Source of the DNA: a virus
DNA: 64,000 nt
Virus record (IMG/VR): IMGVR_UViG_3300029258_002750
Location: 1-64,000 of that record
Reading direction: 5' to 3' (one strand)
The position numbers and the translations under genes are program-made. This document shows positions 13,180-58,221 of the stretch, piece by piece. The notes under the pieces are model-generated. The model was given only the letters and a program-made list of their open reading frames with translations. It did not search any database and was not told the origin of the DNA. Within the stretch, counting starts at the first letter, position 1. The number at the start of each line of letters is the position of its first letter.

Positions 13180-13188
13180 ACCGATGAC

Positions 13189-13270: not shown

Positions 13271-13825
13271 AGTGGTCTTGGGGTAGCCGAAGCGATCGAA
13301 GTCGTCGCCCCACTTCTCGACTACCATCCGCTCGATCTCCGGCGTGTACTGGCTCTGCCAGTCGGCCGTGATCGGGCTCTGCGGGACGATGTGCAGCCGC
13401 TCGTTGGCGACGAACGGCAGCTCGCTGAAGCTCGCCTGGAGCTGTTCGTAGCGGATCAGCTGGGCGGGCTCGATCTCTCCCAGCCGAGCTGACTGGGACT
13501 CGAAGCCGGACCCTGCGGTCCTCTCAACGAAGGCCCCGAAGTCGTCCGGCCTCGCGCGGACGAACTCGCCCAGCTCGTTGGGCCACCGGGACACCCAGTT
13601 CCAGCAGGAGACCATTCTGCTGAATGGGTTCCTCACGGTCGCGATCACGAGGTAGCTCTCGCACCCGGTCGGGATCCCGATCCGATGCGTGAGCATCCGA
13701 CCGTCCTGCTCGCCGCCGATGCAGCCGAACCTGTCGCGCAGCGTGTGGAACACGCAGCGGGTGCCGGTCCGCATGTTGGCGAGGAAGACGAAACGGTGCG
13801 CGTGCGAGACGTTCATCTCGCGCAT
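13262..13825 (-). CDS. Sulfotransferase-family protein, 187 aa
   Basis: The N-terminal FLANMRTGTRCVFHTL fits the 5'-phosphosulfate (PAPS) binding loop, and VRNPFSRMVSCWNWV fits the 3'-phosphate binding motif of the sulfotransferase-2 family. The substrate is unknown. Candidates include a nucleoside, an RNA base or a host glycan, but that is speculation. Two starts are possible (13825 and 13816). The gene lies between tRNA-Ile(GAU) and tRNA-Ser(GCU), and its TGA stop falls inside the tRNA-Ser acceptor. Confidence 0.72.
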   Translation of the reverse strand: MREMNVSHAHRFVFLANMRTGTRCVFHTLRDRFGCIGGEQDGRMLTHRIGIPTGCESYLVIATVRNPFSRMVSCWNWVSRWPNELGEFVRARPDDFGAFVERTAGSGFESQSARLGEIEPAQLIRYEQLQASFSELPFVANERLHIVPQSPITADWQSQYTPEIERMVVEKWGDDFDRFGYPKTTGR

Positions 13826-13833
13826 CGTCGCAT

Positions 13834-13906
13834 AGGGCCACTGGGACTTGCACCCAGCGCCTCCGGCATATCAGACCGGCGCTCTACCTGCATGAGCTAT
13901 GACCCT
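13834..13906 (-). tRNA. tRNA-Ile (GAU), A18/G55 class
   Basis: Acceptor AGGGTCA/TGGCCCT; loop CTGATAT gives GAU. D-loop ATGCAGGTA; T-loop TGCAAGT. Confidence 0.84.
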
Positions 13907-13911
13907 GTGAT

Positions 13912-13986
13912 GGTCCCGGTCGGATTTGCACCGACAACCTCTTGGCCCTCGACCAAGCGCCTCTGCTGTTGGGCTACGAGACCGGA
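13912..13986 (-). tRNA. tRNA-Leu (GAG), short variable loop, A18/G55 class
   Basis: Acceptor GGTCTCG/CGGGACC; loop TCGAGGG gives GAG but with C33 in place of U33. The variable loop is short, unlike bacterial leucine tRNAs. D-loop AACAGCAGA; T-loop TGCAAAT. Confidence 0.74.
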
Positions 13987-13987
13987 C

Positions 13988-14052
13988 GCTCGACGTTGTT
14001 GGTGCCGCAGACGTGCATGTGTTCAGGATGTAGTCCACGACGGCATTCGAGC
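13988..14052 (-). ncRNA. Y RNA-like element, short form
   Basis: P1 GCTCGA/TCGAGC, then ATGCC, P2 CGTGGAC/GTCTGCG (two G-U pairs), loop start TACATC, 3' junction ending CAACG. There is no tRNA module. It lies two bases from the flanking Leu(GAG) tRNA. Confidence 0.6.
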
Positions 14053-14056
14053 TGAT

Positions 14057-14128
14057 GATCCTGGTCGGATTTGCACCGACAACCTCCGCATCCTGAGTGC
14101 GGCGCCTCTGCTGTTGGGCTACAGGATC
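14057..14128 (-). tRNA. tRNA-Leu (CAG), short variable loop, A18/G55 class
   Basis: Acceptor GATCCTG/CAGGATC; loop CTCAGGA on CCGCA/TGCGG gives CAG. D-loop AACAGCAGA; T-loop TGCAAAT; class I variable loop. Confidence 0.82.
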
Positions 14129-14132
14129 GTAT

Positions 14133-14203
14133 GTCCCGGGAGGGATTTGCACCCTCAACTCTGGTGTTTGAGACCAGCGGCGTTGCTATTAGCCTACCGG
14201 GAC
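14133..14203 (-). tRNA. tRNA-Leu (CAA), short variable loop, A18/G55 class
   Basis: Acceptor GTCCCGG/CCGGGAC; loop CTCAAAC on CTGGT/ACCAG gives CAA. D-loop with AATAGCAA; T-loop TGCAAAT. Confidence 0.82.
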
Positions 14204-14209
14204 TCTTCC

Positions 14210-14301
14210 GATGTTCTTTCCGCAGAACGTCGGTGTCTGACTGTTGCAGTTGGGGCAGAGGAAGCACCAGACCAGTGCCTCTGCTGTTGGGCTAGCGGAG
14301 C
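14210..14301 (-). other. tRNA-like 5' fragment
   Basis: It starts like a tRNA (GCTCCGC, TA, then a D-arm identical to that of the Leu tRNAs with AACAGCAGA), followed by hairpins but no recognisable T-arm or closing acceptor. It is probably a decayed tRNA. Confidence 0.35.
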
Positions 14302-14305
14302 TGGT

Positions 14306-14378
14306 AGGGCGCCTGGGAATCGCACCCAGCTTGGAAAGGGTTATAAGCACCTCCGCGACACCTAGCCGCCCGCGCCCC
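14306..14378 (-). tRNA. tRNA-Ile (UAU), A18/G55 class
   Basis: Acceptor GGGGCGC/GCGCCCT; loop CTTATAA gives UAU on a stem with one mismatch. D-loop GCTAGGTGT; T-loop TGCGATT. Confidence 0.75.
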
Positions 14379-14382
14379 TCAT

Positions 14383-14455
14383 GCCCCCGGTGGGAGTTGC
14401 ACCCACAATCTCTCGGTCCGTAGCCGAGCGCCTTAGTCTGTTTGGCCACGGGGGT
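14383..14455 (-). tRNA. tRNA-Arg (ACG), A18/G55 class
   Basis: Loop CTACGGA on CTCGG/CCGAG gives ACG. Acceptor ACCCCCG/CGGGGGC has a 1-72 mismatch. D-loop with AACAGA; T-loop TGCAACT. Confidence 0.82.
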
Positions 14456-14460
14456 TGGAT

Positions 14461-14531
14461 ACCCGGACTGCGAGTCGCACGCAGAACTCGAGGTCCACAA
14501 CCTCGCGTGATCACTGTTTCACCATCCGAGC
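14461..14531 (-). tRNA. tRNA-His (GUG), A18/G55 class
   Basis: Acceptor GCTCGGA/TCCGGGT; loop TTGTGGA on CGAGG/CCTCG gives GUG. D-loop AAACAGTGAT; T-loop TGCGACT. Confidence 0.83.
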
Positions 14532-14536
14532 TGGAA

Positions 14537-14606
14537 GCGGCCTGCGGGAGTTGCACCCGCGCGAAGAGCTTGGGAAGCTCTCATGCTGCTGCTACATCAA
14601 GGCCGC
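14537..14606 (-). tRNA. tRNA-Gly (CCC), A18/G55 class
   Basis: Acceptor GCGGCCT/AGGCCGC; loop TTCCCAA gives CCC. D-loop TAGCAGCAG; T-loop TGCAACT. Confidence 0.85.
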
Positions 14607-14672
14607 GTGCGCCGGATACCCAGGGGGGCTCCCCAGGCCAGCCGGTCCTTGCCGTGCTGCTTGCGATCCGAT
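14607..14672. other. 66-bp spacer, unassigned
   Basis: It has a GGGG/CCCC hairpin and a weak closing CGGAT/ATCCG pair. I see no gene in it. Confidence 0.25.
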
Positions 14673-14754
14673 CCGCCTGCGTGGATTCGCACCACGTTGC
14701 TCCGAAGAGACCCGGGTTACAGCCGGGCACGACCACTAGGTCGACCCCAGACGG
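14673..14754 (-). tRNA. tRNA-Tyr (GUA), class II, G55 class
   Basis: Acceptor CCGTCTG/CAGGCGG; loop CTGTAAC on CCCGG/CCGGG gives GUA; long variable arm TCTCTTCGGAGC. T-loop TGCGAAT; the D-arm is compact (GACC-TAGT-GGTC). Confidence 0.78.
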
Positions 14755-14759
14755 TTGAA

Positions 14760-14829
14760 GCGGCCTACGAGAATCGCACTCGTGACTACAGCATGGCAAG
14801 CTGTCGCGTTACTACTACGCCAAGGCCGC
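14760..14829 (-). tRNA. tRNA-Gly (GCC), A18/G55 class
   Basis: Acceptor GCGGCCT/AGGCCGC; loop TTGCCAT on ACAGC/GCTGT gives GCC. D-loop TAGTAGTAA; T-loop TGCGATT. Confidence 0.85.
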
Positions 14830-14839
14830 GTTGTAAGGG

Positions 14840-15017
14840 GCTCTCGCTGGGAATTGAACCCAGATCCTCCACACCACGATCGCTTCATAGCCGACCGAAG
14901 CCATCCACGGTCGCGCGGTCTGTGCGGCGTGCTTGCCATCCGACGAGCGTCAGAAACCGGGGCTGCTCGGCCCGGCACTGCGGTAGCTCGTGGACGACCC
15001 CATACACCATCGAGAGC
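14840..15017 (-). ncRNA. Interrupted tRNA-like or Y-like RNA with canonical T-arm
   Basis: T-arm CTGGG-TTCAATT-CCCAG and acceptor-like CGAGAGC lie at the 3' end; the complementary GCTCTCG lies 171 nt upstream and is followed by ATGGTGTATGGGG. That start resembles the 5' part of Y RNAs. The middle has several hairpins, including a 6-bp one whose loop contains CTATGAA. I cannot decide between an intron-bearing tRNA and a tRNA-mimicking Y RNA. Confidence 0.4.
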
Positions 15018-15103
15018 ATGTGTTCAGCTGGGCCATGAGGGAGTCGCACCCCCGCCTTCTCGGTGTGAACGAGATGCGCTTCTGTTACACCAATGGCCCG
15101 GGT

Positions 15104-15234
15104 TCCGACGACGTGAAGGCGACGAGAGGGTTATCTAGCCACCACGGCCCTCTCCACGAAAGCGGAGAGACTGGGAGTCGAACCCAGATCGATCGAGTTA
15201 CAGTCGATGTACTCCCATCAGGGCATTCGTCGGA
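15104..15234 (-). ncRNA. Y RNA-like element enclosing a permuted tRNA-Tyr-like module
   Basis: P1 TCCGACGA/TCGTCGGA (8 bp), ATGCC, P2 GATGGGAG/CTCTCGTC, then TAC. The interior first gives an anticodon arm ATCGA-CTGTAAC-TCGAT (GUA), a canonical T-arm (TTCGACT) and acceptor TCTCTCC (15164-15208). After an 8-nt linker comes GGAGAGG (15149-15155), which pairs with that acceptor. The D-arm is less clear than in the Leu and Met modules. Confidence 0.55.
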
Positions 15235-15235
15235 T

Positions 15236-15306
15236 GGAGTAGGTGGGAGTTGCACCCACGACCCTCGGTTTGCAGGACCGACGCTCTCCTACTGAGCTAC
15301 TACCCC
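15236..15306 (-). tRNA. tRNA-Ala (UGC), A18/G55 class
   Basis: Acceptor GGGGTAG/CTACTCC; loop CCTGCAA gives UGC, with C33 instead of U33. D-loop AGTAGGA; T-loop TGCAACT. Confidence 0.78.
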
Positions 15307-15311
15307 AAGAC

Positions 15312-15382
15312 GGCCCCCGTGGGATTCGCACCCACAACCTCACGGTCCAAAGCCGCGCGCTCTGCTGTTGAGCTAGGGGGCT
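15312..15382 (-). tRNA. tRNA-Gln (UUG), A18/G55 class
   Basis: Loop CTTTGGA gives UUG. Acceptor AGCCCCC/GGGGGCC has a 1-72 mismatch. D-loop AACAGCA; T-loop TGCGAAT. Bases 8-10 supply the stop codon of the 15373-15624 frame. Confidence 0.82.
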
Positions 15383-15624
15383 AGGTTCTTCTCGCGCTCG
15401 CGCGCTCGAATGATCGCAAGCTCGACCTTGCGCTCGCGGGCGGTCTTCTTCCCGCGCTTCTTCGCCAGGCACGTGTAGCAGTGCCTCGGCGGTTGGTGGC
15501 CGCTCCGCGCGGCCCGTTCGATGTGCTTCAGCTTGATCGGCCGATCGCACGCCCTGCATCGTCGGCCGCTCTCTTCAGCGAAGTGCGGCCAGTGGTAGTC
15601 CTTCTCTCGCTTGTTGGTGGCGAT
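15373..15624 (-). CDS. Small zinc-finger protein, possible ATC start, stop inside tRNA-Gln
   Basis: An 83-codon frame has CRAC and CYTC pairs separated by a basic helix and followed by a highly basic tail (KKRGKKTARERK), which suggests a nucleic-acid-binding zinc finger. No ATG, GTG or TTG precedes the conserved part. The only signal is AGGAGG followed by ACT-ATC, so either a rare ATC start is used or the 5' end is damaged. The TAG stop is formed by tRNA-Gln(UUG) positions 8-10. Confidence 0.45.
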   Translation of the reverse strand: MATNKREKDYHWPHFAEESGRRCRACDRPIKLKHIERAARSGHQPPRHCYTCLAKKRGKKTARERKVELAIIRAREREKNLAP

Positions 15625-15644
15625 AGTCCTCCTGGCTGGCGGAT

Positions 15645-15716
15645 AGCGTCGCCCGGATTCGAATCGGGATCCTCACAGGTTATGAGCCTGGCGAGCTACC
15701 GTTGCTCTACGACGCG
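15645..15716 (-). tRNA. tRNA with CAU anticodon (Met), canonical elbow
   Basis: Loop CTCATAA; acceptor CGCGTCG/CGACGCT with an unpaired C1-U72 as in the initiator, but without the GGG/CCC anticodon pairs. D-loop AACGGTA and T-loop TTCGAAT are canonical. Confidence 0.78.
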
Positions 15717-15718
15717 AC

Positions 15719-15791
15719 GGCCCCCCTGGGATTTGCACCCAGAAACCTCCGGTTCCAGAGACCGGCGCTCTACTGATTGAGCTAGGGGGCT
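15719..15791 (-). tRNA. tRNA-Gln (CUG), A18/G55 class
   Basis: Loop CTCTGGA on CCGGT/ACCGG gives CUG. Acceptor AGCCCCC/GGGGGCC. D-loop AATCAGTA; T-loop TGCAAAT. Confidence 0.84.
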
Positions 15792-15794
15792 AGG

Positions 15795-15861
15795 CGCCCG
15801 ACGTTGGTGGTTGCCGTGTCGAGCACATGTTGGAGATGTAGACACAGCTGGCATTCGGACG
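15795..15861 (-). ncRNA. Y RNA-like element, short form
   Basis: P1 CGTCCGA/TCGGGCG (7 bp, one G-U), ATGCC, P2 CTGTGTC/GACACGG, loop start TACATC, 3' junction ending CAACG. There is no tRNA module. The CGTCCGAATGCC start is the copy most like metazoan Y RNA 5' ends. Confidence 0.62.
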
Positions 15862-15863
15862 AC

Positions 15864-15934
15864 AGGCCGCCTGGGAATCGCACCCAGCAGACGGCAGGTT
15901 TTGGAGACCCGCCCGCGTACCTAGCGCGCGACCT
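15864..15934 (-). tRNA. tRNA-Trp (CCA), A18/G55 class
   Basis: Acceptor AGGTCGC/GCGGCCT; loop CTCCAAA on CGGGT/ACCTG gives CCA. D-loop CTAGGTA; T-loop TGCGATT. Confidence 0.8.
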
Positions 15935-15938
15935 AGAA

Positions 15939-16009
15939 GTGCCGCCCCGGAGTTGCACCGGGCTCTTCGGTGTTGCAGACCGACGGATGAACTGATCTCC
16001 CTGCGGCAC
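15939..16009 (-). tRNA. tRNA-Cys (GCA), A18/G55 class
   Basis: Acceptor GTGCCGC/GCGGCAC; loop CTGCAAC on TCGGT/ACCGA gives GCA. D-loop GATCAGTTCA; T-loop TGCAACT. Confidence 0.83.
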
Positions 16010-16014
16010 GTGGC

Positions 16015-16085
16015 TTACCCCCTGGGATTCGCACCCAGAACATCCTGGTTAACAGCCAGGCACTCTACTATTGAGCTAGGGGTAA
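16015..16085 (-). tRNA. tRNA-Asn (GUU), first copy, A18/G55 class
   Basis: Acceptor TTACCCC/GGGGTAA; loop CTGTTAA on CCTGG/CCAGG gives GUU. D-loop AATAGTA; T-loop TGCGAAT. Confidence 0.85.
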
Positions 16086-16086
16086 C

Positions 16087-16157
16087 TCAGCCCCTCGGAT
16101 TTGCACCGAGACCTCCTCCGGTAACAGCGGAGCGCTCTACTACTAAGCTAGGACTGA
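16087..16157 (-). tRNA. tRNA-Asn (GUU), second copy, A18/G55 class
   Basis: Acceptor TCAGTCC/GGGCTGA; loop CTGTTAC on CTCCG/CGGAG gives GUU. D-loop AGTAGTA; T-loop TGCAAAT. The stems differ from the first Asn copy. Confidence 0.83.
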
Positions 16158-16158
16158 T

Positions 16159-16229
16159 GACCCGGACGGGAATCGCACCCGCACTCTTCGGCGTGAGAGA
16201 CCGACGTGTTTCTGTTACACCACCGGGCC
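16159..16229 (-). tRNA. tRNA-Glu (CUC), A18/G55 class
   Basis: Acceptor GGCCCGG/CCGGGTC; loop CTCTCAC gives CUC. D-loop TAACAGAAA; T-loop TGCGATT. Confidence 0.84.
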
Positions 16230-16233
16230 AGAT

Positions 16234-16304
16234 GGGCCTGCTCGGATTTGCACCGAGAACATCCTGGTTAAGAGCCAGGCGTGATCCTGTTTCACCACAG
16301 ACCC
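16234..16304 (-). tRNA. tRNA-Lys (CUU), A18/G55 class
   Basis: Acceptor GGGTCTG/CAGGCCC; loop CTCTTAA on CCTGG/CCAGG gives CUU. D-loop AAACAGGAT; T-loop TGCAAAT. Confidence 0.85.
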
Positions 16305-16308
16305 AAGC

Positions 16309-16381
16309 GGGGAGATTCGGGAGTTGCACCCTCATTCACCGGCACGTGCTGCCGCTCGTGACGGATACCTGCTCGGTCCCC
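16309..16381 (-). tRNA. Irregular tRNA-like gene, possibly Val (CAC)
   Basis: A D-loop with CAGGT and a T-loop TGCAACT place it in the A18/G55 class. Only 5 bp of acceptor (GGGGA/TCCCC) pair, and the best anticodon loop, AGCACGT, has G33. It may be degenerate. Confidence 0.4.
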
Positions 16382-16386
16382 AAGAC

Positions 16387-16460
16387 GGCCGCGACGGGAT
16401 TCGCACCCGCGATCTCCACCGTGACAGGGTGGCATGTTGACTTGGCTACACCACGCGACC
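16387..16460 (-). tRNA. tRNA-Asp (GUC), A18/G55 class
   Basis: Acceptor GGTCGCG/CGCGGCC; loop CTGTCAC on CCACC/GGTGG gives GUC. D-loop TAGCCAAGTCAA; T-loop TGCGAAT. Confidence 0.84.
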
Positions 16461-16466
16461 AGGTTG

Positions 16467-16602
16467 ACGTCCGAGTGAGGGAACCGCGAGTAGGTGCTCT
16501 TCCACTTGAGCTAGTTCGCCCCGAGTGGCGAACCCTGGAGTCGAACCAGGAACATCCCGCTGATGAAGCGAAAGTGCGTGTAGGATTCTCTCGGCCGGAC
16601 GC
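16467..16602 (-). ncRNA. Y RNA-like element enclosing a permuted tRNA-Met module
   Basis: P1 GCGTCCG/CGGACGT and P2 GAGAGAATC/GGTTCCCTC (one mismatch) enclose a complete tRNA in permuted order. The 3' half (16527-16572) has TTCGC-TTCATCA-GCGGG (CAU), T-arm CCTGG-TTCGACT-CCAGG and acceptor GTTCGCC. A 6-nt linker follows, then GGCGAAC, TA and a perfect D-arm GCTC-AAGTGGAA-GAGC (16495-16520). Joined at position 26/27, the parts give a 72-nt cloverleaf with canonical G18-G19 and U55. This is the clearest permuted module. Confidence 0.68.
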
Positions 16603-16606
16603 CGAT

Positions 16607-16677
16607 GGGACCCCTCGGAATTGCACCGAGACCTTCCGGTTTTCAGCCGGGTGCTCTACTGGTTGAGCTAAGGCCCC
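16607..16677 (-). tRNA. tRNA-Phe (GAA), A18/G55 class
   Basis: Acceptor GGGGCCT/GGGTCCC; loop CTGAAAA gives GAA. D-loop AACCAGTA; T-loop TGCAATT. Confidence 0.82.
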
Positions 16678-16812
16678 AAGACAGCGAGTTGTCAATGAGC
16701 AGTGCGTTGACGCGCCGATCCGACTAGCTAGGTCAGGGGCAACGCCCTCGTCTTGTGCTTCCCTGGACTGAGGAGGCCGCGATTCCTTTCCACGATTCTC
16801 CTTTTGTCCTAA
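16678..16812. other. 135-bp leader-like gap between Phe and Thr tRNAs
   Basis: On the - strand it has TTGACA (16689-16694) just before tRNA-Phe and a 21-codon frame with a good ribosome binding site (AAAGGAGA). Neither is convincing alone. Confidence 0.25.
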
Positions 16813-19407: not shown

Positions 19408-19712
19408 GTCCTGGTCTCCTCTTCACGTTTTACCCAGGACTCGTTCGACGTCCTGTGCGCAGAAGACTGGGCAACCACCGGCCACTCGATGTCTTCACTG
19501 ATCGCGTTCGCCAGGAGGGTCACGACGTCGTCGGGCTCCTCGAGATCCGATGCCCAGCACGACCCAGCGTGATTGTCAACCGTCTTCCACTGGTACCGCA
19601 TCACGATCACGTGCTCGTTGAAGAACGGAACCGAGCCGGTGATGCGCACCCGGTGGCGCTCCCGGTGGTGTCGGAGGATGTAGGTACCGCCGATCTTAGG
19701 CTGGATCTTCAT
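19404..19712 (-). CDS. Hypothetical protein, 102 aa
   Basis: The N-terminal 60 residues are beta-rich (GGTYILRHHRERHRVRI). The segment EEPDDVVTLLANAISED looks like a variant of the recurrent peptide (compare LPDDAVTRLGDLVRDD at 26.2 kb). It is coupled to its neighbours by short overlaps. Confidence 0.58.
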   Translation of the reverse strand: MKIQPKIGGTYILRHHRERHRVRITGSVPFFNEHVIVMRYQWKTVDNHAGSCWASDLEEPDDVVTLLANAISEDIEWPVVAQSSAHRTSNESWVKREEETRT

Positions 19713-20004
19713 CGTCCAGCTCCCCCAGCGACACGATGGCCGACCGCTCTTGCACCCACGCGGCGAAAACCACGCTCACCAGTTCGGGGAGGTCGGGGCC
19801 GGTCGCCTGCGCGAAGTAGCCGATGTGATCGATACGCGCGCCTGCGGGAGGTACGGGTTTGTCGCGTATCGACTCCGGTCCCCAGTGGCGTAGTTTGCGG
19901 TGGCCGTCCCCGGTCGAGACAGTCACCACGTAGTCGCCGTCCTCGCGGAAGCAGACGGTCGCGTTCATCCGCTCGAGTCGTCGAATCGTCTTGTCGTCGA
20001 TCAT
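19696..20004 (-). CDS. Hypothetical protein ending in SAIVSLGELDD
   Basis: The protein has 102 residues from ATG 20004, which overlaps the upstream stop. Residues 20-60 suggest a small beta domain (DYVVTVSTGDGHRKLRHWG). The C-terminus ERSAIVSLGELDDEDPA is a copy of the recurrent peptide with an acidic tail. Its end overlaps the next gene by 17 nt. Confidence 0.58.
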   Translation of the reverse strand: MIDDKTIRRLERMNATVCFREDGDYVVTVSTGDGHRKLRHWGPESIRDKPVPPAGARIDHIGYFAQATGPDLPELVSVVFAAWVQERSAIVSLGELDDEDPA

Positions 20005-20327
20005 CGCGCCAGGTCTGCCAGCTGATCGATCGCCGAGGGCTCGGTCAGCGCTGACGCCCAGACGCGGACCCGAGCTTCCGTCTGTGCGCCAAACTCGATC
20101 GAGCCGTTGCCAGCGATACCGTTCAGAGTGAGCGTCTCGCCATCTCGGAGGAGGGTCGGTCCCACGCCGCCCTGGCCGCCAATTCTCGCGACAACATCGC
20201 CGCCCTCGGCCGCGAGCATGAGCAGGTCCGTCGAGATGTGGTTCGGGATGCACCGGACGATCGACTGGCACTCCGGTACGACGACCTCCTCGTAGAACTC
20301 GACGCGGATGTGGGGCAGCTCAGGCAC
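20001..20327 (-). CDS. Hypothetical protein ending in PSAIDQLADLA
   Basis: The protein has 108 residues from GTG 20327. The middle is beta-rich and Gly-rich (ARIGGQGGVGPTLLRDGE). The last 12 residues, EPSAIDQLADLAR, are a near-consensus copy of the recurrent peptide. A copy of the GTCAGCGCTGAC palindrome lies in codons just before it. Confidence 0.6.
   Translation of the reverse strand: MPELPHIRVEFYEEVVVPECQSIVRCIPNHISTDLLMLAAEGGDVVARIGGQGGVGPTLLRDGETLTLNGIAGNGSIEFGAQTEARVRVWASALTEPSAIDQLADLAR
20044..20055. repeat. 12-bp palindrome GTCAGCGCTGAC
   Basis: Second copy of the palindrome seen at 6916; coding, next to the recurrent peptide. Confidence 0.5.
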
Positions 20328-20541
20328 GGGGCTTCCCCCACACCGCGATGTCGGCCAGGCGGTCGACCACCGAGGCGGGCCGCAGATCGTAGCCGTCTGG
20401 GGAGACGTAGCGGTTCGGGTGCCCGTGCCAGCAGACCTCGACGACCGGCCGGGGAACCCGGAGGCCGCTGTCGTCCTTCACGAGCCGCCCGACGCGGCGT
20501 TCGCCCTCGACCCTGACCAGAACCCACTCCGGCTGCTCCAT
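20320..20541 (-). CDS. Small SH3-like protein with SVVDRLADIA peptide
   Basis: The protein has 73 residues from ATG 20541. A TAGAAC core ends 6 nt upstream, fitting a leaderless mRNA. The fold pattern (EWVLVRVEGERRVGRLV, RPVVEVCWHGHP) is a small beta barrel. The near-terminal PASVVDRLADIAVWG is a copy of the recurrent peptide. Confidence 0.6.
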   Translation of the reverse strand: MEQPEWVLVRVEGERRVGRLVKDDSGLRVPRPVVEVCWHGHPNRYVSPDGYDLRPASVVDRLADIAVWGKPRA

Positions 20542-24669: not shown

Positions 24670-25089
24670 ATGACCGTCCGCACACTACCCGTAGCTCCGA
24701 TCAACACCACGGCCAGCGAGCTAACGGCTGCGGTCGCGCGCGTGCAGGAGAAGATCGCGGCCCGGCGCATGATCGGCGAGCTGTGGAGCCCGGAGATGAC
24801 CGGCCGGATCCGACTCACCAGCGCCTCGCACGTCGTCGTCGGCCTGCGCGTGAAGGAGGACGGGTCGCTAGAGGCCGACTTCGAGTTCGTGGACAACGAG
24901 CAGGGGAGGATGGCCGAGAGTTTCGCTGAGATTGGCACCTCCTACCCGGTGCACGGCACACTTCGAGCCTACGGAACGAGTCGCGGTCGCCTGGTCCGCG
25001 ACCTGGAGATCATCACCGTAGACCTGAGCGTCGGCGACTACCCGGACAACCCGTGCGCCATCGATCTCCTCGGGGATGTCGTCCGATGA
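24670..25089 (+). CDS. Hypothetical protein ending in CAIDLLGDVV
   Basis: This is the first of seven overlapping small genes, 139 residues. The body has alternating strands and helices, and the end is NPCAIDLLGDVVR, a copy of the recurrent peptide. Its stop overlaps the next ATG. Confidence 0.6.
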   Translation: MTVRTLPVAPINTTASELTAAVARVQEKIAARRMIGELWSPEMTGRIRLTSASHVVVGLRVKEDGSLEADFEFVDNEQGRMAESFAEIGTSYPVHGTLRAYGTSRGRLVRDLEIITVDLSVGDYPDNPCAIDLLGDVVR

Positions 25090-25493
25090 GCACCGTAGAG
25101 AGGGCGAAGCGCGAGATCCTCGAACGGTTCGAGCGACGACTACAGAAGGAGATCCGAGCCCAAGGGGGCGGGGATGTTCCGCCGTGGGTGAAAGCTGGCA
25201 TGGCGCTGATCAACCAGTCCCGGCTCCACGATCCGCTGCGCCCGCCGATCGTGTCGGTCCAGCCGATGACCCAGCCGGTTGGCGGCATCACCTTCTACCG
25301 ACCCCGGTACGGCAGCTGGGAGCCCTCGGCCGTCGATCGGCTAGCCGCGCTGGCCGAACCCGATAGCGAGATGGCGAAGAGGATCGCGGAGTACGACGAG
25401 CAGGAACGGCGGCAGGAGGAGTTCTTCCGCAGGCACGCGAGGGCGATTCTGATGCTGGGATCCAAGGACGAGCGAAGGGAGATGTCGTCGTGA
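25086..25493 (+). CDS. Hypothetical protein with extended PSAVDRLAALAEPDSEMAKR motif
   Basis: The protein has 135 residues. The N-terminal 35 residues are a charged helix. WEPSAVDRLAALAEPDSE, then a charged helix, is the long form of the recurrent peptide. It shares the D-x-E-(I/V/M)-x-K-(R/K)-(V/I/L) extension with proteins at 25861, 26604 and 46396. Confidence 0.6.
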   Translation: MSTVERAKREILERFERRLQKEIRAQGGGDVPPWVKAGMALINQSRLHDPLRPPIVSVQPMTQPVGGITFYRPRYGSWEPSAVDRLAALAEPDSEMAKRIAEYDEQERRQEEFFRRHARAILMLGSKDERREMSS

Positions 25494-25864
25494 GCGCGGC
25501 CGACGACTGGGGCAAGGACGAAGACCGCGATCTCATTGCCGAGCTGGGCGATCTGTCCTGCCCGCCCGAGGAGCAGGTGCTTCGCCGCCGGAAGCGCAGC
25601 TTCAAGCACTGGCTCCACACGTCAGTTGGCGTCGGCATCAGCTCGCGCGGCACCGGAGAGCGGAAGGACGATGTCGAGAAGATCTCCAAGACCTACGACG
25701 AAGGGAACGAGCAGCAGCGGACGATACTCGACACCTTCCGCTTCGTGACCGAAAGCACCAAAACCCACATCGAGCGGCTCGGCGCCGAGTCCTTCATGAC
25801 GACAGCGGATCGATGGGAGAGCGTGAGGAAGCTGGCCGATCGGGCGGCCGAGGATGGCCTGTGA
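25490..25864 (+). CDS. Hypothetical protein, 124 aa
   Basis: It starts at GTG 25490, overlapping the previous stop. The protein is charged and mostly helical. DLIAELGDLS near the N-terminus may be a weak version of the recurrent peptide. No domain recognised. Confidence 0.52.
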   Translation: MSAADDWGKDEDRDLIAELGDLSCPPEEQVLRRRKRSFKHWLHTSVGVGISSRGTGERKDDVEKISKTYDEGNEQQRTILDTFRFVTESTKTHIERLGAESFMTTADRWESVRKLADRAAEDGL

Positions 25865-26109
25865 ACGATCCAGACGAACTGCCCGAGGACTGGGACGATC
25901 TGCCCGAGATCGAGCTGAACATCCGCTCCGAGGAGGTCATCGCCAAGCCGAGGAAGCTGCGAATCGCCGGTCTACCAGCCGAGCCCTCTGCCGTCGAGAA
26001 GCTCGGGGCGGTGGTGGATCCTGAGGTGCAGAAGAAGCTGGAGGACTACGACAAGGCGAGGGCTCGTTTCGATGAGATGCTGGCTGATCTGAGAGCGCTG
26101 TGGGGGTAG
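25861..26109 (+). CDS. Small protein with PSAVEKLGAVVDPEVQKK motif
   Basis: The protein has 82 residues from GTG 25861. After an acidic N-terminus and a short beta part, EPSAVEKLGAVVDPEVQKK leads into a coiled-coil-like helix ending DLRALWG. It is a long-form copy of the recurrent peptide. Confidence 0.58.
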   Translation: MNDPDELPEDWDDLPEIELNIRSEEVIAKPRKLRIAGLPAEPSAVEKLGAVVDPEVQKKLEDYDKARARFDEMLADLRALWG

Positions 26110-26369
26110 CTTCTACCAGGCTCAAGTGCTACGGCGAGGTCAACTACAAGACCGGCGAGCTGCTCATGGTCTTCGACAAGCCGCCGCCGAAGGGGGGCTA
26201 CGTCACGGCCGACTACATGATGCTGCCAGATGACGCGGTCACACGACTCGGCGACTTGGTTCGGGATGACAATGAGAAGCGAGCGCCGAGCGTGTTCGCC
26301 GGACCGTTCGTCCAGGGGGAAACGATACGCGGCGACGTATCCGGCATCCGGCCCGGGAAGACTAAGTGA
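26100..26369 (+). CDS. Small protein with internal DDAVTRLGDLVRDD
   Basis: The protein has 89 residues from GTG 26100. The first half is a small beta unit (CYGEVNYKTGELLMVF); LPDDAVTRLGDLVRDD is internal, between two ordered parts. Confidence 0.55.
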   Translation: MGVASTRLKCYGEVNYKTGELLMVFDKPPPKGGYVTADYMMLPDDAVTRLGDLVRDDNEKRAPSVFAGPFVQGETIRGDVSGIRPGKTK

Positions 26370-26623
26370 ACACCCAGGGCTCTGGCGGCGGAGGCGGCGC
26401 TTGCACCATCGTCTACGGCGTCGGCACGATCACGATGGGCGGCGTCGCCGGAGCTGATGGAAGCAACGGCAGGCTGACGCCTAGCATCACCGCCGGGGGT
26501 GGCGGGGGAGGCGCGGGCGGCAACGGTGGCGGAGTCATCTTCGTGCACCCTCGGCGTCTTCCACGGAGCGCGGTCGAGCAGATGGGCGACCTGGTGCGGG
26601 ACGATGAAGATCCAGATGCTTGA
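26366..26623 (+). CDS. Glycine-rich small protein ending in RSAVEQMGDLVRDD
   Basis: The protein has 85 residues from GTG 26366. Two Gly-rich tracts (GSGGGGGAC, GGGGGGAGGNGGG) flank a short beta strand. The C-terminus PRSAVEQMGDLVRDDED is a copy of the recurrent peptide. Confidence 0.55.
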   Translation: MNTQGSGGGGGACTIVYGVGTITMGGVAGADGSNGRLTPSITAGGGGGGAGGNGGGVIFVHPRRLPRSAVEQMGDLVRDDEDPDA

Positions 26624-26936
26624 CGGTGGCGAGGTCGACGTACCGGCCAACGGCTGTATCGACGCGGGCCAGATGCTCTTCGTCCGCATCGACGGGACCG
26701 TGACCGGACATCAGGATGGGAAGTCACCGGCGATCGGCATCGCGGTCGAGTCGAGCGGACCGCTTGAGCCATCGGCGGTCGAGAGGCTCGCGGCGATCGA
26801 GGACCCCGAGATTAAGAAGCGGGTGGACGCTTGGGATCGGCGGAACACACTCCACCTCGCGCCGTTCGACCCGGTGCCCGATCCTTCGGCGCCAGGTGCG
26901 GTGCCGCTTCTAAAGGACGCTCTGCGTTCTTCATGA
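26604..26936 (+). CDS. Small protein with PSAVERLAAIEDPEIKKR motif
   Basis: The protein has 110 residues from ATG 26604. The N-terminal half looks like a small beta domain, then LEPSAVERLAAIEDPEIKKR and a proline-rich tail. It is the last gene of the cassette, and its end overlaps the convergent gene by 125 nt. Confidence 0.55.
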   Translation: MKIQMLDGGEVDVPANGCIDAGQMLFVRIDGTVTGHQDGKSPAIGIAVESSGPLEPSAVERLAAIEDPEIKKRVDAWDRRNTLHLAPFDPVPDPSAPGAVPLLKDALRSS

Positions 26937-27259: not shown

Positions 27260-27964
27260 CTACGGCCCGCCATACTCACCTGCGGCGGGATTGAACTTGA
27301 TCGGGATCGCGTCGTCGGTGTGGAACTCGCGCGCCGCGTCCACGAAGAGCTTCTTCGGGCGCGGGTTCGCGGCTACCGCGTTGGACGGGTCGAGGCGCAG
27401 CACAATGTCGGCATAGTCGGCCAGTCCCCTGGGCAGACCGTAGCCGCTTCGGTCGGAGTGTGCCGTCGCGATGATCGGAATGCTGTGGCTGATCGCGAGC
27501 TGCTTTAGCCTGGACGCGTAGTGCGTCTCCCCGCGCCGGGGGTCTCTGGACCGGCCGCCTGAGAACATCATGTCGTCTACGAACAGACCGACAGTAGGAG
27601 AGACCGCGCGTTCGACCAGCGCGTCGAACGTGGGGGAGAGCATGGACGGGTCAAACACCGCGATGCGCTCGTCCCTCTCCCCGATCTCGGCCAGCTGATC
27701 GACAGCGCACCGCCTGACGGTGTTGTAGGACTGCTTCGCGCGGATCGCGTAGAGGCGCATCTGGACCTCGCGTGCGGTGGTGGTGGTCGGAAAGACCAGC
27801 ACCCTCCTGTTTGGAGGAAGGGATCGCGCCGCCTCGTTCGCCATCGTGAGCAGGACCCACGTTCGACCACGCTTCGCCTTGCCGGTTACGAGAATCAGCT
27901 CGCCCGCCCGGAAGCCGAGGGAGAGCGCGTTGAGCTGTGGCCATGGGCTCGGAAGGATTGTCAC
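27260..27964 (-). CDS. DnaB-like RecA-fold ATPase with degenerate Walker A
   Basis: The protein has 234 residues and resembles the RecA-fold core of the DnaB protein at 33684-35186. The Walker A position reads TGKAKRGRTW where DnaB has LAKRKVGKTW, so the catalytic Lys is Arg. A DDMMF strand fits Walker B. CAVDQLAEIGERDE is inserted mid-domain and is another copy of the recurrent peptide. It may be a regulatory, ATP-hydrolysis-impaired paralogue. Confidence 0.68.
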   Translation of the reverse strand: MTILPSPWPQLNALSLGFRAGELILVTGKAKRGRTWVLLTMANEAARSLPPNRRVLVFPTTTTAREVQMRLYAIRAKQSYNTVRRCAVDQLAEIGERDERIAVFDPSMLSPTFDALVERAVSPTVGLFVDDMMFSGGRSRDPRRGETHYASRLKQLAISHSIPIIATAHSDRSGYGLPRGLADYADIVLRLDPSNAVAANPRPKKLFVDAAREFHTDDAIPIKFNPAAGEYGGP

Positions 27965-31954: not shown

Positions 31955-33067
31955 GTGAGATTCAAGACGCAGGCAGTCCTCCTCAAGCCGTTTGTGGATG
32001 CGACGGCCAGCATCGTTCCCAAGAACAACAAGCGTCCCCAACTCGAATGCACGCGGATCGACGTCGATCGCGGCGTGGTTACCCTGTCGGCGACCAACCT
32101 CAACGAGACGATCCGGCTGGTCTTCTCCGACGAGTGCGAGACCGAGGACGGATCGGTCTTTCTGCCGTCCGTGAACCTCCAGCGCACGATCAAGGAGGCG
32201 GGCAAGAGCGAGCTGGACATCAAGTGGAACGGCAAGACGCAGAAGGCGGCCTGCCGATTCGACAACACCCTGGTGAACCTGCCGGTCGAGCCGCCAGAGG
32301 ATCTGCCCAACATCCCGCGCTTCTCTGAGAAGGGGTCGGCCGTCACGATCCCCGGGCCAGCGCTGACCGCGATCCTGTCCCGGGCGGTGTTCTCGGTCCA
32401 GTCGGACTTCGTCGCGCGCGCGTTGGCGGGCGTGAGCGTGAAGATTCGCAAGGACGAGATAGAGTTGGCCGCGACGAACGGGATGGGGATCGCGGTCGTT
32501 CGGCACAAGGTCGGCAACCCGGACGGGCTCGAGCGGAGCGCGATCTTGCCGCCGGTGCCGCCGAAGATCGTCGCGTGGATCGCGCCCGAGCCGGACGATG
32601 TCGTCGAGTTCCAGTTGGTCGTGAACCAGCTGAGACTGCGAGGGCCGCGCGGCGAGTTGTCATTCCGGCTGATGGCCGGGCAGTTTCCCGACTACGAGGA
32701 CCACGTACCCGAGAAGCTCCCCAAGAGCATGGACATCGAGCGCAAGCCGCTCCTCGAGATGCTCGAACAGAGCAAGCTCCTCAAGGTGGTAGGGCTCACG
32801 CGCTACAAGTTCACCCTGACCACAGACCGGCTGGAGATGGTCGCCGCGTCCGGCGTGGACGGGAAGATCACTGCTGCGCTGGAGGTCCCCTGGTCGTGGG
32901 AGGACACGGCGCTGTCGCTGGACCCGAACCTGATGATCCCGGTGCTCAAGGCCATGAAGGCGACCCACGTCGTCTTCGGCGTGGCCGGGCCAGAGGAGCC
33001 GGTCCTGTTCCGCGAGGTCACCGACAAGTTCTCCAACCGCTACATGCTGAGTCCGAGGTTTGAGTGA
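31955..33067 (+). CDS. dnaN: DNA polymerase III beta sliding clamp
   Basis: The 370-residue protein has the length and three-domain strand pattern of bacterial beta clamps. It contains KNNKRPQLECTRI (domain 1), RLMAGQFPDYEDHVP (domain 2) and the C-terminal YMLSPRFE, where the host version usually ends in M-P-M-R. The clamp tethers polymerase to DNA. A phage-encoded bacterial-type clamp beside a family A polymerase implies processive replication with its own clamp. GTG start, leaderless type. Confidence 0.88.
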   Translation: MRFKTQAVLLKPFVDATASIVPKNNKRPQLECTRIDVDRGVVTLSATNLNETIRLVFSDECETEDGSVFLPSVNLQRTIKEAGKSELDIKWNGKTQKAACRFDNTLVNLPVEPPEDLPNIPRFSEKGSAVTIPGPALTAILSRAVFSVQSDFVARALAGVSVKIRKDEIELAATNGMGIAVVRHKVGNPDGLERSAILPPVPPKIVAWIAPEPDDVVEFQLVVNQLRLRGPRGELSFRLMAGQFPDYEDHVPEKLPKSMDIERKPLLEMLEQSKLLKVVGLTRYKFTLTTDRLEMVAASGVDGKITAALEVPWSWEDTALSLDPNLMIPVLKAMKATHVVFGVAGPEEPVLFREVTDKFSNRYMLSPRFE

Positions 33068-40879: not shown

Positions 40880-43639
40880 ATGCCACAGCTCATCAAAGAC
40901 ATCGACACCGGCGACGTAGAGCCGGAGCGCCTCATCGAGGCCGCGCGAGATCGCGGCGCGTTCGTATTCGATTTGGAAACTACCGGATTGGTGCCCAGGC
41001 GGGATCGTATCGAAGGTATCGCCTTCTACGTTCCGCCAGATCCGGTCACCAGGCTCGGGGACGTCGTTCGCGAACCGCAGCCCGAACTTCGAGCCTGGTA
41101 CCCCTTCATCCCTGACTCATTCCGCACCTGGGTTCAGCCGGACGACGGCAGTAAGCCGATCGTCAGGAACCTCCGGCCCGCGATGCCGCAGGCCGAGACG
41201 ATGAACGCGCTCCGGCCGCTGTTCGAGGACAGCCCGGGGACGATCGCGGTCGCCCACAACGCCAAGTTCGACGTGGCGTTCCTCAAGTATGCGAGCGGGT
41301 GCGCTCGAGGCTTCTGGATGGAGCGCTCGGCCGTCGATCAGCTGGGCGACCTGGTGCGCGGCGAGGACGACGACCCGGCCGTGTGGTGGTGCAACGGCCT
41401 GCTCCTCGCCGACTCGATGCTGGCCGACTTCCTCTGCGACGAGAATCTCTACCAGTACGGCCTGAAGCACCGGGTGAAGGACGTGCTCGGCCACGAGATG
41501 ACGACCTACATGGACGTGGCTCGCACCCGCAAGCAGGGCGTGCTGTCGTTCATGGCCGATGACGTCCAGACGCTCGGCTACTACGCGATGGAGGACTGCT
41601 ACTGGACCTGGATGCTGTTCGAGGACCGGATGAGGGAGCTGGACAGCCAGACGCCCGGCACGCCGATTCCCGAGGACGCGGTGGACGCGCTCGCCTGGCT
41701 CTATGAGGAGGGGCTAAAGCTCAGTCCGTTCGACAAGACCCGGGCGATGGGCAACCTCGAGCGGCTCTTCTGGGGAATCGACATGAGGATCTGCCAGATC
41801 CTCGAAGAGATGGAGAGCACCGGCATCCTCATCGACTGGAAGTGGCTCCGGCAGGTCACCAAGGATCTGGAGGAGAAGAAAGAGAAGATCATCCGCCGGA
41901 TCGAGGAGCGCGTCGGCTGGACGCTCAACCCGAACAGCCAGCCGCAGGTCAGCTCGCTGCTCTTTACCGCGAAGGAGCACGGCGGCCTGGGCCTCTCCTC
42001 CAAGGGGATCAAGCGCGGCAAGAGCGGCGCGATCTCGACCGGGTCGAAGGAGATCGGGCACCTCCGCCAGGCTGATCCGGTCGTGGCCGACATCCTCGAC
42101 TGGCGATCGGCCGACACCGTGCGCGCGAACTTCTCCGAGAAGCTCGCTCGGATCGCTCAGGAGGAGCCCGACTGCCGGGTCTACTCTCACTTCAATCAGA
42201 CCGGCACGGTGATCCATAGGCTCAGTTGCGTCTCCGGTTCTACGAAGCTCTCTATTCGCGTAGGAAACGACGATTCCAAGCGTTCAATCAGAATTTCAGA
42301 CATGCAGCCCGCCGATGGGCCGGTATGGATCGAGACGCACAAGGGGCGGGAGCGCCGGATCACGCACCGGATCAACAAAGGTCCGGGCTTCATGTTCGAC
42401 GTGGAGACCGACGATGGTCGAACGATTCGCTGTACCGAGGATCATATCTTTCTCACTGATCGTGCGTGGCTCCCGCTCAAGGACATTCAAGCGACCGACT
42501 CTCTGGTCGGACCTGATCACCAGCTGGCCGCGATTGCTTCCGTTGTTCCGGCAGGCGTAGAGACCGTCTGGGACATCACCGTCGAGGAAGATGCCAGCTA
42601 CGTCGCGCACGGGTTCCTGAACCACAACAGCTCGGATCCCGTCAACCTCCAGAATCAGCCCCGCGACCGCAACCTGATCCGCAAGGCGTTCTGCGCCTAC
42701 TTCGAGGACGAACTGGAGCCGGACATGCTCCTGTTCGGCGCCGACTACGGGCAGGTCGAGCTGCGCGTGGCCGCGCACCTCTCTGGCGACAAGGGCATGA
42801 CGGAGGTCTACCAGACCGGCAAGCCGTGCACGCGCGGGCCTCGCGGGGGCGCCTGCGAGCGCTACAAATGGTGGGAGTGCGAGAACAAGCACGAGGATGG
42901 CTCCTACTGCGGTCACACGTGGATCCCGAAGCAGTGGGATCCGAAGAAGCCCGGCGCTCCTCTCACATGCCCCAAGTGCGGCGGGCCGGAGATCGGCCAC
43001 CAGAAGCGGTGCCGTCACGTGGACCTGCACCAGCGCACGGCCGAGGACGTCGGTGTCCCCCGCAACCCGCTCGCGAAGAATGCGAATTTCGGATTGCTGT
43101 ACCGGATGGCCGCGCCTCGGTTCTGCCAGTACGCGAACCTCTACGACAAGAACGGTGAGCCGAGGATCGACTACGCGCAGGCGCTGATCGATGGGTGGTT
43201 CAACGCCTACCCGGCGATCCAACCGTTCCACGACCGCACCGAGCGCTGGCTGCGGCAGAACGGCTGGTACGCCTGCACATTGACCGGGCGCCGTCGCCGC
43301 CTCGACCGGGAGCGCTGGAAGAACGAGTACCGCGCGGTCACCCAAGGGATCCAGTTCCGCGTCAGCGGCTCGGCACAGGACATCCTCAAGCGCGCGATGG
43401 TGGACATTGCCGAGGAGCGCGAGCGGAAGATCTTCTGGTCCCGGCCTGCCGAGCGGAAGCTCTGGAAGAAGCTCCGCTACATCATCCAGGTGCACGACGA
43501 GGTCATGCTTCAGGGAGCTGCGGCGCTCAAGGACGAAACGATCGAGCTGATCAACGACAAGATGTGCGGCGCGGCCACGCTGAACGTGCCACTGACGGCG
43601 GACTGTAAGGCGGGGAGGACGTGGGATGACATTCACTGA
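40880..43639 (+). CDS. Family A DNA polymerase with mini-intein, zinc insert and two inserted recurrent peptides
   Basis: The precursor has 919 residues. 3'-5' exonuclease motifs FDLETTGL and HNAKFDVAFL are followed by ADYGQVELRVAAHLSGD (motif A), KNANFGLLY (motif B) and HDEVMLQ (motif C), so both activities look intact. Between exonuclease motifs, DPVTRLGDVVREP and RSAVDQLGDLVRGEDD are inserted copies of the recurrent peptide. A zinc-ribbon-like block of about 65 residues sits between motif A and LHQRTAEDV. An intein (42227-42628) splits RLS from SSDP. It is the phage replicative polymerase. Confidence 0.88.
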   Translation: MPQLIKDIDTGDVEPERLIEAARDRGAFVFDLETTGLVPRRDRIEGIAFYVPPDPVTRLGDVVREPQPELRAWYPFIPDSFRTWVQPDDGSKPIVRNLRPAMPQAETMNALRPLFEDSPGTIAVAHNAKFDVAFLKYASGCARGFWMERSAVDQLGDLVRGEDDDPAVWWCNGLLLADSMLADFLCDENLYQYGLKHRVKDVLGHEMTTYMDVARTRKQGVLSFMADDVQTLGYYAMEDCYWTWMLFEDRMRELDSQTPGTPIPEDAVDALAWLYEEGLKLSPFDKTRAMGNLERLFWGIDMRICQILEEMESTGILIDWKWLRQVTKDLEEKKEKIIRRIEERVGWTLNPNSQPQVSSLLFTAKEHGGLGLSSKGIKRGKSGAISTGSKEIGHLRQADPVVADILDWRSADTVRANFSEKLARIAQEEPDCRVYSHFNQTGTVIHRLSCVSGSTKLSIRVGNDDSKRSIRISDMQPADGPVWIETHKGRERRITHRINKGPGFMFDVETDDGRTIRCTEDHIFLTDRAWLPLKDIQATDSLVGPDHQLAAIASVVPAGVETVWDITVEEDASYVAHGFLNHNSSDPVNLQNQPRDRNLIRKAFCAYFEDELEPDMLLFGADYGQVELRVAAHLSGDKGMTEVYQTGKPCTRGPRGGACERYKWWECENKHEDGSYCGHTWIPKQWDPKKPGAPLTCPKCGGPEIGHQKRCRHVDLHQRTAEDVGVPRNPLAKNANFGLLYRMAAPRFCQYANLYDKNGEPRIDYAQALIDGWFNAYPAIQPFHDRTERWLRQNGWYACTLTGRRRRLDRERWKNEYRAVTQGIQFRVSGSAQDILKRAMVDIAEERERKIFWSRPAERKLWKKLRYIIQVHDEVMLQGAAALKDETIELINDKMCGAATLNVPLTADCKAGRTWDDIH
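42227..42628 (+). other. Mini-intein, 134 aa, in the DNA polymerase
   Basis: It begins with Cys (CVSGSTKLSI) after RLS and ends VAHGFLNHN before Ser-Ser-Asp, meeting intein end rules (C1, His-Asn, Ser+1). Removing it restores RLS-SSDPVNLQNQ, the usual polymerase A motif. The short length leaves no homing endonuclease. Its AT content is visibly higher than the flanks, pointing to recent acquisition. Confidence 0.86.
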
Positions 43640-46412: not shown

Positions 46413-46623
46413 GGTGACCGGCGAGTTCCACCAGGTCGACAGGCCGAACGGGCCGATCTCTAAGCACTACAACGAGGCGATGGAGCCGCTCCGCGTGTTG
46501 TTGAGAGAGCCCTCCGCCGTCGAGCGGCTGGCCGCACTGGAGGATCCCGAGATCGCTGCGCGGGTAGCGAGGTGTGATCGGTTCCGTTCTTACTACGGGA
46601 CGGTCGAGAGCACGAACCTCTAG
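46396..46623 (+). CDS. Small protein with long-form PSAVERLAALEDPEIAAR
   Basis: The protein has 75 residues. Beyond a short N-terminal part, REPSAVERLAALEDPEIAAR and a following helix are the best match to the consensus of the recurrent peptide. The start overlaps the previous gene by 17 nt. Confidence 0.58.
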   Translation: MSSRLEVTGEFHQVDRPNGPISKHYNEAMEPLRVLLREPSAVERLAALEDPEIAARVARCDRFRSYYGTVESTNL

Positions 46624-57413: not shown

Positions 57414-57868
57414 GCGACAACATACAGGCCGCACTGGACGCGCTCGGCGGCGCGCGGCAGCAGAAGACGGGCACTGGTCCCGTCGAGCCCACGCTCGTAT
57501 CGAGCGGCGACGCAATCGAGGATCTGGGCAAGCTCGTCGAGCGGAACGCGGGCGTTCCCCAGGGCGTGCTGGCGCTCGCTTCGCGTGCGGCGCAGGCGGC
57601 CGATGAGTCGCGCGAAGCCGCCGCGAAGGCCAAGATGCTCAAGGCCGAGCTGTCCGAGGCGATGAAGTCGGCCGAGGTCGACCGGATCGAGATGGAAGAT
57701 CGGCAGCCGATCAAGTGGAAGACGAAGAACGACCGCCAGGTGTCCCGCAAGGCGATCATCGGCGTGATCGGGGAGGATGCGGGGCAGAAGCTCTGGGGCA
57801 GACTGCCTTCGCCGCCCAAGACCTATCTCGACATCCCCGCCCGGGAGATCCCCGATCCCGAGCAGTGA
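57410..57868 (+). CDS. Hypothetical protein, 152 aa
   Basis: GTG 57410 overlaps the sigma-like stop. The central segment has regular Ala/Glu heptads (coiled coil). SGDAIEDLGKLVERNAG near residue 33 is a plausible variant of the recurrent peptide. The C-terminus is a compact basic domain. Confidence 0.55.
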   Translation: MSDNIQAALDALGGARQQKTGTGPVEPTLVSSGDAIEDLGKLVERNAGVPQGVLALASRAAQAADESREAAAKAKMLKAELSEAMKSAEVDRIEMEDRQPIKWKTKNDRQVSRKAIIGVIGEDAGQKLWGRLPSPPKTYLDIPAREIPDPEQ

Positions 57869-58221
57869 GCAACTCGTTCGTCGCTGCCAAGCCGTTCTTC
57901 AAGCCGCCGCCCGACGAGAAGCCGAAGGTCATCATCCTCGACTCAGCTGGTCAGCCGCCGTTCTTCCACCACTACTGGCCCTGCCCGTGGAAGCGCGGCG
58001 ATCTGGTGACCTGGTGGTCCGTGGACTACGGCAACCGCCTGGCCAGGGTGTCGCGCCCCGAAGGCCCCGGCCCCTGGGACTCGGTTCACATCCGGCTTCT
58101 ACGCCCGGTCGAGGTGCCCAACGAGCGCGGATCGTTCGATCGGCGCTGGGCGTTCACAGCCGATCGGTGCGATCTGGCCGAACCCAGTGCGATAGACCTA
58201 CTTGCGGACCTGGCCGGGTGA
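57865..58221 (+). CDS. Hypothetical protein ending in PSAIDLLADLA
   Basis: The protein has 118 residues from GTG 57865. It is a proline-rich, aromatic-rich small domain (FFHHYWPCPWKRGDLVTWW) with a barrel-like strand pattern. AEPSAIDLLADLAG at the end is a copy of the recurrent peptide. Confidence 0.6.
   Translation: MSNSFVAAKPFFKPPPDEKPKVIILDSAGQPPFFHHYWPCPWKRGDLVTWWSVDYGNRLARVSRPEGPGPWDSVHIRLLRPVEVPNERGSFDRRWAFTADRCDLAEPSAIDLLADLAG

Follow-up and report, generated by a model that had tools for sequence, protein, structure and literature searches.

Why should the DNA polymerase of a large uncultured phage carry the same short peptide several times over? The gene lies at 40880-43639 (+) of the window, the 64,000-nucleotide stretch analysed here. 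The window is the opening 64 kb of a virus record (G000) that is 275,101 bp long and whose remainder was scanned as well. The gene encodes a family A DNA polymerase of 919 aa with a 3'-5' exonuclease domain, three copies of the peptide (hereafter the tag) and a mini-intein (Pfam and gene call; an alternative start codon lies upstream, at 40799). Both family A criteria are met, namely the presence of the catalytic domain (Pfam DNA_pol_A, 184.9 bits, 2.9e-54) and of the 3'-5' exonuclease domain (DNA_pol_A_exo1, 25.1 bits).

The polymerase was aligned with those of related uncultured phages, which were found by capsid and portal searches and are known from fragmentary contigs; identities were 77-91% by segment for G001, 48% for L165, about 40% for G007 and G008 and about 25% for L169, L171 and L172. 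Tag copy 1 (PDPVTRLGDVVR, aa 53-64, 41036-41071, +) corresponds to an in-frame gain of 8 residues, placed in a loop that joins two exonuclease-domain strands. The gain is missing in G001, G007, G008 and L165, and the close relative G001 is 83% identical in this segment yet lacks the 8 residues (IAFYVPPDPVTRLGDVVREPQPELRAWYPF versus IAFYVPPDEPTQTPELRAWYPF). Tag copy 2 (RSAVDQLGDLVR, aa 149-160, 41324-41359, +) sits within a gain of 26-27 residues (about 41321-41400) that is common to G001 only and missing in the 40-48% identical polymerases of L165, G007 and G008; the segment is also short in L169, L171 and L172. Tag copy 3 (EDAVDALAWLYE, aa 265-276, 41672-41707, +; PSSM score 20.2 and alignment) is likewise an insertion present in G001 and missing in L165, G007 and G008. 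The preliminary description, which had reported the peptide twice in the exonuclease domain, is therefore confirmed for the first two copies, but it had overlooked the third and the genome-wide spread documented below. Its reading of these segments as in-frame insertions is supported, since they are absent or short in the polymerases of the phage's relatives; orthologues having the segment without the motif would have refuted it, and none was met among these polymerases.

Do the insertions leave the enzyme intact? A model of the exonuclease-thumb region matches the Klenow fragment (Z 16.8) and the ExnV1 exonuclease (Z 16.4, rmsd 3.6 Å over 213 residues), and the exonuclease fold is thus predicted to be retained despite the inserts. 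The earlier claim that the inserts are surface-exposed has only weak support because model confidence falls there (pLDDT about 35-60). Low-confidence models assign helices to copies 2 and 3, which is again weak support only, and a full-length model was discarded for its poor quality (pLDDT 47.7). Separate from the tag system, the gene contains a mini-intein of 134 aa (42227-42628, +) with boundaries set by sequence: Cys1 and a C-terminal HN|S are present, and the Intein_splicing match (E 1.4e-7, 31.8 bits) falls slightly under the cut-off of 35.8. The number of polymerase inteins differs between relatives, with one in this phage, two in G001 (the exonuclease motif is split by one of them) and, it appears, four in G007, where the open frame reaches 2459 aa.

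The tag is not confined to the polymerase. When the 413-414 genes called by a purpose-made caller were scanned with an iterated profile (threshold, a score above 13 bits), the 12-residue motif (S/D)-A-(V/I)-(D/E/T)-x-L-(A/G)-x-(L/I) was found in 107 of 413 proteins, against 0 in reversed and 0.3 in shuffled sequences. A fixed regular expression gave 115 matches in the record where composition predicts 0.75, 52 of them at most 6 residues from the C-terminus; restricted to the C-terminal 35 residues, it picked out 81 proteins, whereas shuffled sequences gave 0.14, N-termini 2 and reversed tails 1. Typical tagged ends are EPSAIDQLADLAR, EPSAVDQLGDLTR and PSAVERLGDLVR, each running into the stop. 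In an alignment of 95 tagged proteins the sole recognisable consensus block is SAVDxLAxLxR. Expansion of a paralogous family is ruled out: 106 tagged proteins fell into 105 BLAST clusters once the motif had been masked, this clustering being weak for very small proteins. A generic feature of phage C-termini is also ruled out, as the strict pattern has no matches in the distant outgroups G009, G011 and G014 or in the stretches of phiKZ and SP-15 that were scanned. Direct gains are seen beyond the polymerase, at the C-terminus of RNase H (tagged in this phage, untagged in G007 and G008) and internally in the 184689-185126 protein relative to G003; conversely, a segment of the 96195-96533 protein is tagged in G001 and untagged here. 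The tag is thus real, genome-wide and independently gained by unrelated proteins, and the earlier suggestion of tagging proves right on evidence from outside the polymerase, the same tag being borne by about 100 other proteins. One scan match, at 268834-269661, is a false positive: the protein is a calcineurin-like phosphoesterase and GDLVDRG its catalytic motif.

Within the window, open reading frames that start inside it hold 21 copies above threshold, and a first six-frame scan had already shown the peptide in further frames at 446, 25069, 26247 and 26582. Several copies form the exact C-terminus of their protein: PSAIDQLADLAR (20004-20039, -; 108 aa), PCAIDLLGDVVR (25051-25086, +; 139 aa) and PSAIDLLADLAG (58183-58218, +; 118 aa), the G001 orthologue of the last ending PSAVDLLADLGR. 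Others stop shortly before it, namely PSAIEKLGDIVR (428-463, +; 6 aa before the end of a 90-aa protein), RSAIVSLGELDD (19711-19746, -; 4 aa), ASVVDRLADIAV (20341-20376, -; 6 aa) and RSAVEQMGDLVR (26564-26599, +; 7 aa). Internal copies are PSAVDSLGELER (6199-6234, +) in a 129-aa protein, DDAVTRLGDLVR (26229-26264, +), the weaker GDAIEDLGKLVE (57506-57541, +) and RCAVDQLAEIGE (27677-27712, -), which lies within a DnaB_C-like ATPase fragment (27260-27964), and one copy is N-terminal in a 128-aa protein (RSAIDILAEIGK, 7731-7766, -). A long-tailed sub-class (window 25323-26830 and 46510-46600, and the L261-L262 end), which includes PSAVEKLGAVVD (25984-26019, +), PSAVERLAAIED (26769-26804, +) and PSAVERLAALED (46510-46545, +), follows EPSAVDRLAALEDPEIAARVxxWDEH with a second predicted helix and could conceivably be a minimal tag-bearing domain. 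The copy PSAVDRLAALAE (25323-25358, +) belongs to a 135-aa protein (25086-25493, +) that also holds a capsid-like peptide: its SVQPMTQPVGGITFYRPRY nearly matches SVQPMTGPIGGIAFYRPRY of the capsid protein, and homologues occur in G003 and G005. A weak Pfam Gp23 match in one tagged protein probably concerns this one. Lit-type defences sense a capsid region in T4, and the peptide may possibly be a relic of this region or else serve as a capsid-peptide decoy.

Which proteins are tagged? Most carriers are small non-structural proteins, probably early ones, with the tag close to the C-terminus; sometimes the tag is a loop insertion. Tags are frequent at 95-170 kb, a region of small genes, and depleted in the virion block at 185-262 kb (4 of 79 proteins, against 103 of 334 elsewhere, P=2.9e-7), also when only proteins of at most 200 aa are considered (2 of 38 against 96 of 260, P=2.8e-5). 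Recognisable carriers are the polymerase, RNase H, the DnaB_C-like ATPase, an HNH-HTH protein, zinc fingers, and WGR, SH3-like and DUF6011 proteins; most tagged proteins have no Pfam match, so the functional make-up of the set is guessed from few. Several core replication proteins are untagged: the clamp (31955), DnaB (33684), the primase (35186), RecA/UvsX (50474) and an SSB-like protein (39023). The beta clamp, of DNA polymerase III type (31955-33067, +), is only about 18-23% identical to the nearest phage records; it is also present in G003 and G019 and was not detected in G007 and G008.

Is the tag conserved as DNA or as peptide? Pairs of tags sharing a residue agree in codon at a rate of 0.429 in this genome, against 0.418+-0.011 simulated from its codon usage, and of 0.405 against 0.424 in G006. 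Codon agreement between tags does not exceed the random level, and selection therefore acts on the peptide, not on the DNA. In the tag profile the hydrophobic moment is maximal at 105 degrees, the conserved face consists of V/I, L, A/G and L/I, and positions 1 and 4 covary like a helix capping box (P=1.6e-24): S pairs with D/E 134 times and never with T, while D pairs with T 27 times and with D/E 8 times. The tag is likely an N-capped amphipathic helix of two to three turns, (S/D)-A-(V/I)-(D/E/T)-x-L-(A/G)-(D/E/x)-(L/I)-(V/A)-x, an inference that rests on this sequence profile.

Relatives carry the system to very different extents. At the same threshold, tagged proteins number 95 of 274 in G006, 48 of 213 in G003, 23 of 87 in G004, 14 of 89 in G001, 13 of 112 in G002, 10 of 185 in G005, 1 of 252 in G007 and 0 of 133 in G008; the C-terminal regular expression finds 89 tails in G006 and 29 in G003, against 0.04 shuffled in each. 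The consensus depends on the lineage. G000, G003 and G006 share SAVDxL(G/A)(E/D)L. G005 and G019, which come from the same sample, use the same dialect and are possibly one phage, have (D/S)(V/P)V(E/D)xLAEL (32 and 15 C-terminal tails against 0.7 and 0.3 shuffled) and an untagged polymerase. G007 has xVLDRLAE(I/A), often ending in a terminal VLDRLAEI (18 tails against 0.62). The long-tailed sub-class changes in parallel in other dialects (EPSAVDRLAALEDPEIAARV.. becoming PSIIDRIASIENAELAKRI..). The tag consensus thus shifts in concert across many genes in other phage lineages. When 2.9 million viral contigs were scanned with two degenerate-DNA patterns of the tag, this lineage alone returned repeated matches. 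The host remains elusive: cultured relatives are too distant for an assignment (capsid about 30% for SP-15), and a genome scan with capsid proteins yielded as sole clue a 25%-identical protein on a Chloroherpeton MAG contig.

We propose that the tag is a short docking helix read by one common partner, of the phage or of the host. We consider this likely, with the caveat that the partner is inferred and that there are no binding data. A single receptor is inferred because (i) selection acts at the peptide level, (ii) the tag was gained independently, (iii) it presents a single helical face and (iv) its consensus drifts in concert. The tag also meets the criterion of a short linear docking motif, as it recurs in unrelated proteins and is conserved as a peptide. 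In this model, an (S/D)-capped helix would have been added to about a quarter of the phage proteins, mostly as a C-terminal tail; a single partner, be it a conserved protein of the host or a scaffold that the phage encodes, would offer a groove to the hydrophobic face (V/I, L, A/G, L/I); and the tagged proteins (DNA polymerase, RNase H, DnaB-like and DNA-binding proteins) would be recruited to one place or complex, the several tags of the polymerase raising its affinity for the partner. More speculatively, this place may be a replication or host-takeover body, operating like an encapsulation-peptide or sorting-signal system. A simple replication-compartment signal is argued against by the untagged core replication proteins, and the untagged polymerase of the G005/G019 phage, which does have the tag system, also weighs against the proposal. 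A search for the partner by gene content (genes present in G000, G006 and G005 and not in G007-9) identified none: it lists HNH 12357-12926, a 93-aa protein (119377-119658), UvrD-like 170537-175789, and NUDIX 179821, 183467 and 190612, and the criterion is not decisive because G007 also carries drifted tags. The UvrD-type protein on this list (L007:7037-12286, or 170537-175789 of the record) combines UvrD-type helicase and 2'-5' RNA ligase-like domains in 1750 aa; it is 44-88% identical in G005, G006 and G003 and absent from G007-9.

How does such a tag compare with known systems? Bacterial microcompartment encapsulation peptides and encapsulin cargo-loading peptides are short terminal or inter-domain peptides carried by unrelated cargo and read by one receptor. 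The phage tag resembles the former in being amphipathic and terminal or between domains (by sequence profile only), but it has about 100 clients, mostly tiny proteins without known function. Encapsulation peptides offer, by analogy, the nearest working comparison; membership is not claimed because no shell gene was found, neither BMC-domain shell proteins (PF00936) nor an encapsulin shell protein (PF04454) being found in the phage record. The Chimalliviridae phage nucleus, which imports proteins selectively (PMC11087766), also gathers the phage's own proteins, whereas the present phage differs in having a family A polymerase, DnaB and its own clamp; neither 'localization signal' nor 'sequence motif' was found in the text of that paper, and a single-sequence search with phiKZ gp54 (chimallin) gave no match here, which distant homologues could escape. 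Like beta-clamp- or PCNA-binding and other short linear motifs, the tag is short, degenerate and repeatedly evolved; unlike the clamp-binding motifs, it has no Q-L-x-L-F and no aromatic, a far larger client set in one virus, and lineage dialects.

Among the rival explanations, two are unlikely without being excluded. In the first, the helix is an adaptor or degron bound by a host or phage AAA+ protease or unfoldase, the small early proteins either delivering host targets to be destroyed or being themselves turned over; SspB, with its C-terminal ClpX-binding tail, offers a functional parallel. In favour of this, many small proteins whose N-terminal domains are unrelated have the tag at the C-terminus, and a conserved host receptor would account for the common consensus of G000 and G006 despite a median identity of 47% between their shared proteins. 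However, internal and even N-terminal copies exist, the tag is unlike known degron ends, the residues after the motif are free, and the polymerase (with several copies) and RNase H are proteins that a phage should not destroy; we infer from the multiple polymerase tags that recruitment rather than degradation is suggested. In the second, tag helices pair with each other, so that a network or condensate of the tagged proteins arises and no dedicated receptor is needed. The helix is amphipathic and has an almost invariable small residue (A/G), as is typical where helices pack closely; this and the multivalent polymerase are compatible with such a view, but concerted drift in about 100 genes is easier through one changing receptor than through mutual pairing.

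Two further alternatives are very unlikely. Recruitment to the phage's own beta clamp, or another replisome-binding function, would fit the presence of a clamp in G000, G003 and G019 and the failure to find one in G007 and G008, whose polymerases are untagged. However, the profile of the 267 distinct tags lacks a Q-L-x-L-F type or hexapeptide consensus and an aromatic anchor, G019 has a clamp and an untagged polymerase, G007 has drifted tags and no detected clamp, and about 100 clients are implausible. A virion-loading signal, by which tagged proteins would be packaged through binding to capsid or scaffold, could invoke the capsid, about 80% identical across G000, G006 and G005, as a slowly changing receptor, and encapsulins do use short C-terminal cargo peptides; but the capsid of G000 is as close to that of G005 as to that of G006, yet only the G005 consensus differs, and about 100 cargo proteins including a DNA polymerase would need packaging. 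Finally, a mobile DNA repeat encoding a tolerated peptide, in the manner of Rickettsia palindromic elements (which are conserved as DNA), could explain in-frame gains in conserved genes and a recurring peptide in unrelated proteins, but is all but excluded, as synonymous codons are random in two genomes (the DNA is randomised and the peptide alone kept), the C-terminal bias is strong and the helix cap covaries.

The docking-helix interpretation may be extended to a bolder reading, about which we remain marginally more sceptical than convinced: a virus-wide protein-sorting code, in which a helical address tag with lineage dialects, carried by roughly one protein in four to one in three, would be read by one receptor (phage-encoded or a conserved host protein) and would build a replication or takeover body. 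No precedent for such a tag was found in the literature searched, most subscription journals lying outside the search. The accessory regions of large phages consist mostly of small orphan genes that offer no functional handle; here, one peptide links about 100 orphan proteins and a DNA polymerase to a single predicted partner, and a quarter of the proteome of a jumbo phage could gain a function from one binding experiment. A phage-encoded partner would represent a novel means by which a virus arranges its proteins in the bacterial cell; a host partner would point to a host hub that the phage exploits extensively. Because the tag changes in concert from lineage to lineage, co-evolution with the receptor can be tested directly.

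A peptide tag of another kind is also encoded in the window. Over 30 tRNA genes are clustered at 8803-16678 (-) together with a complete tmRNA gene (8946-9300; Rfam RF00023, 126.8 bits), an unusual gene for a phage to encode, and the tag peptide that it specifies, ANAPVRLAA, is unlike the recurrent peptide.
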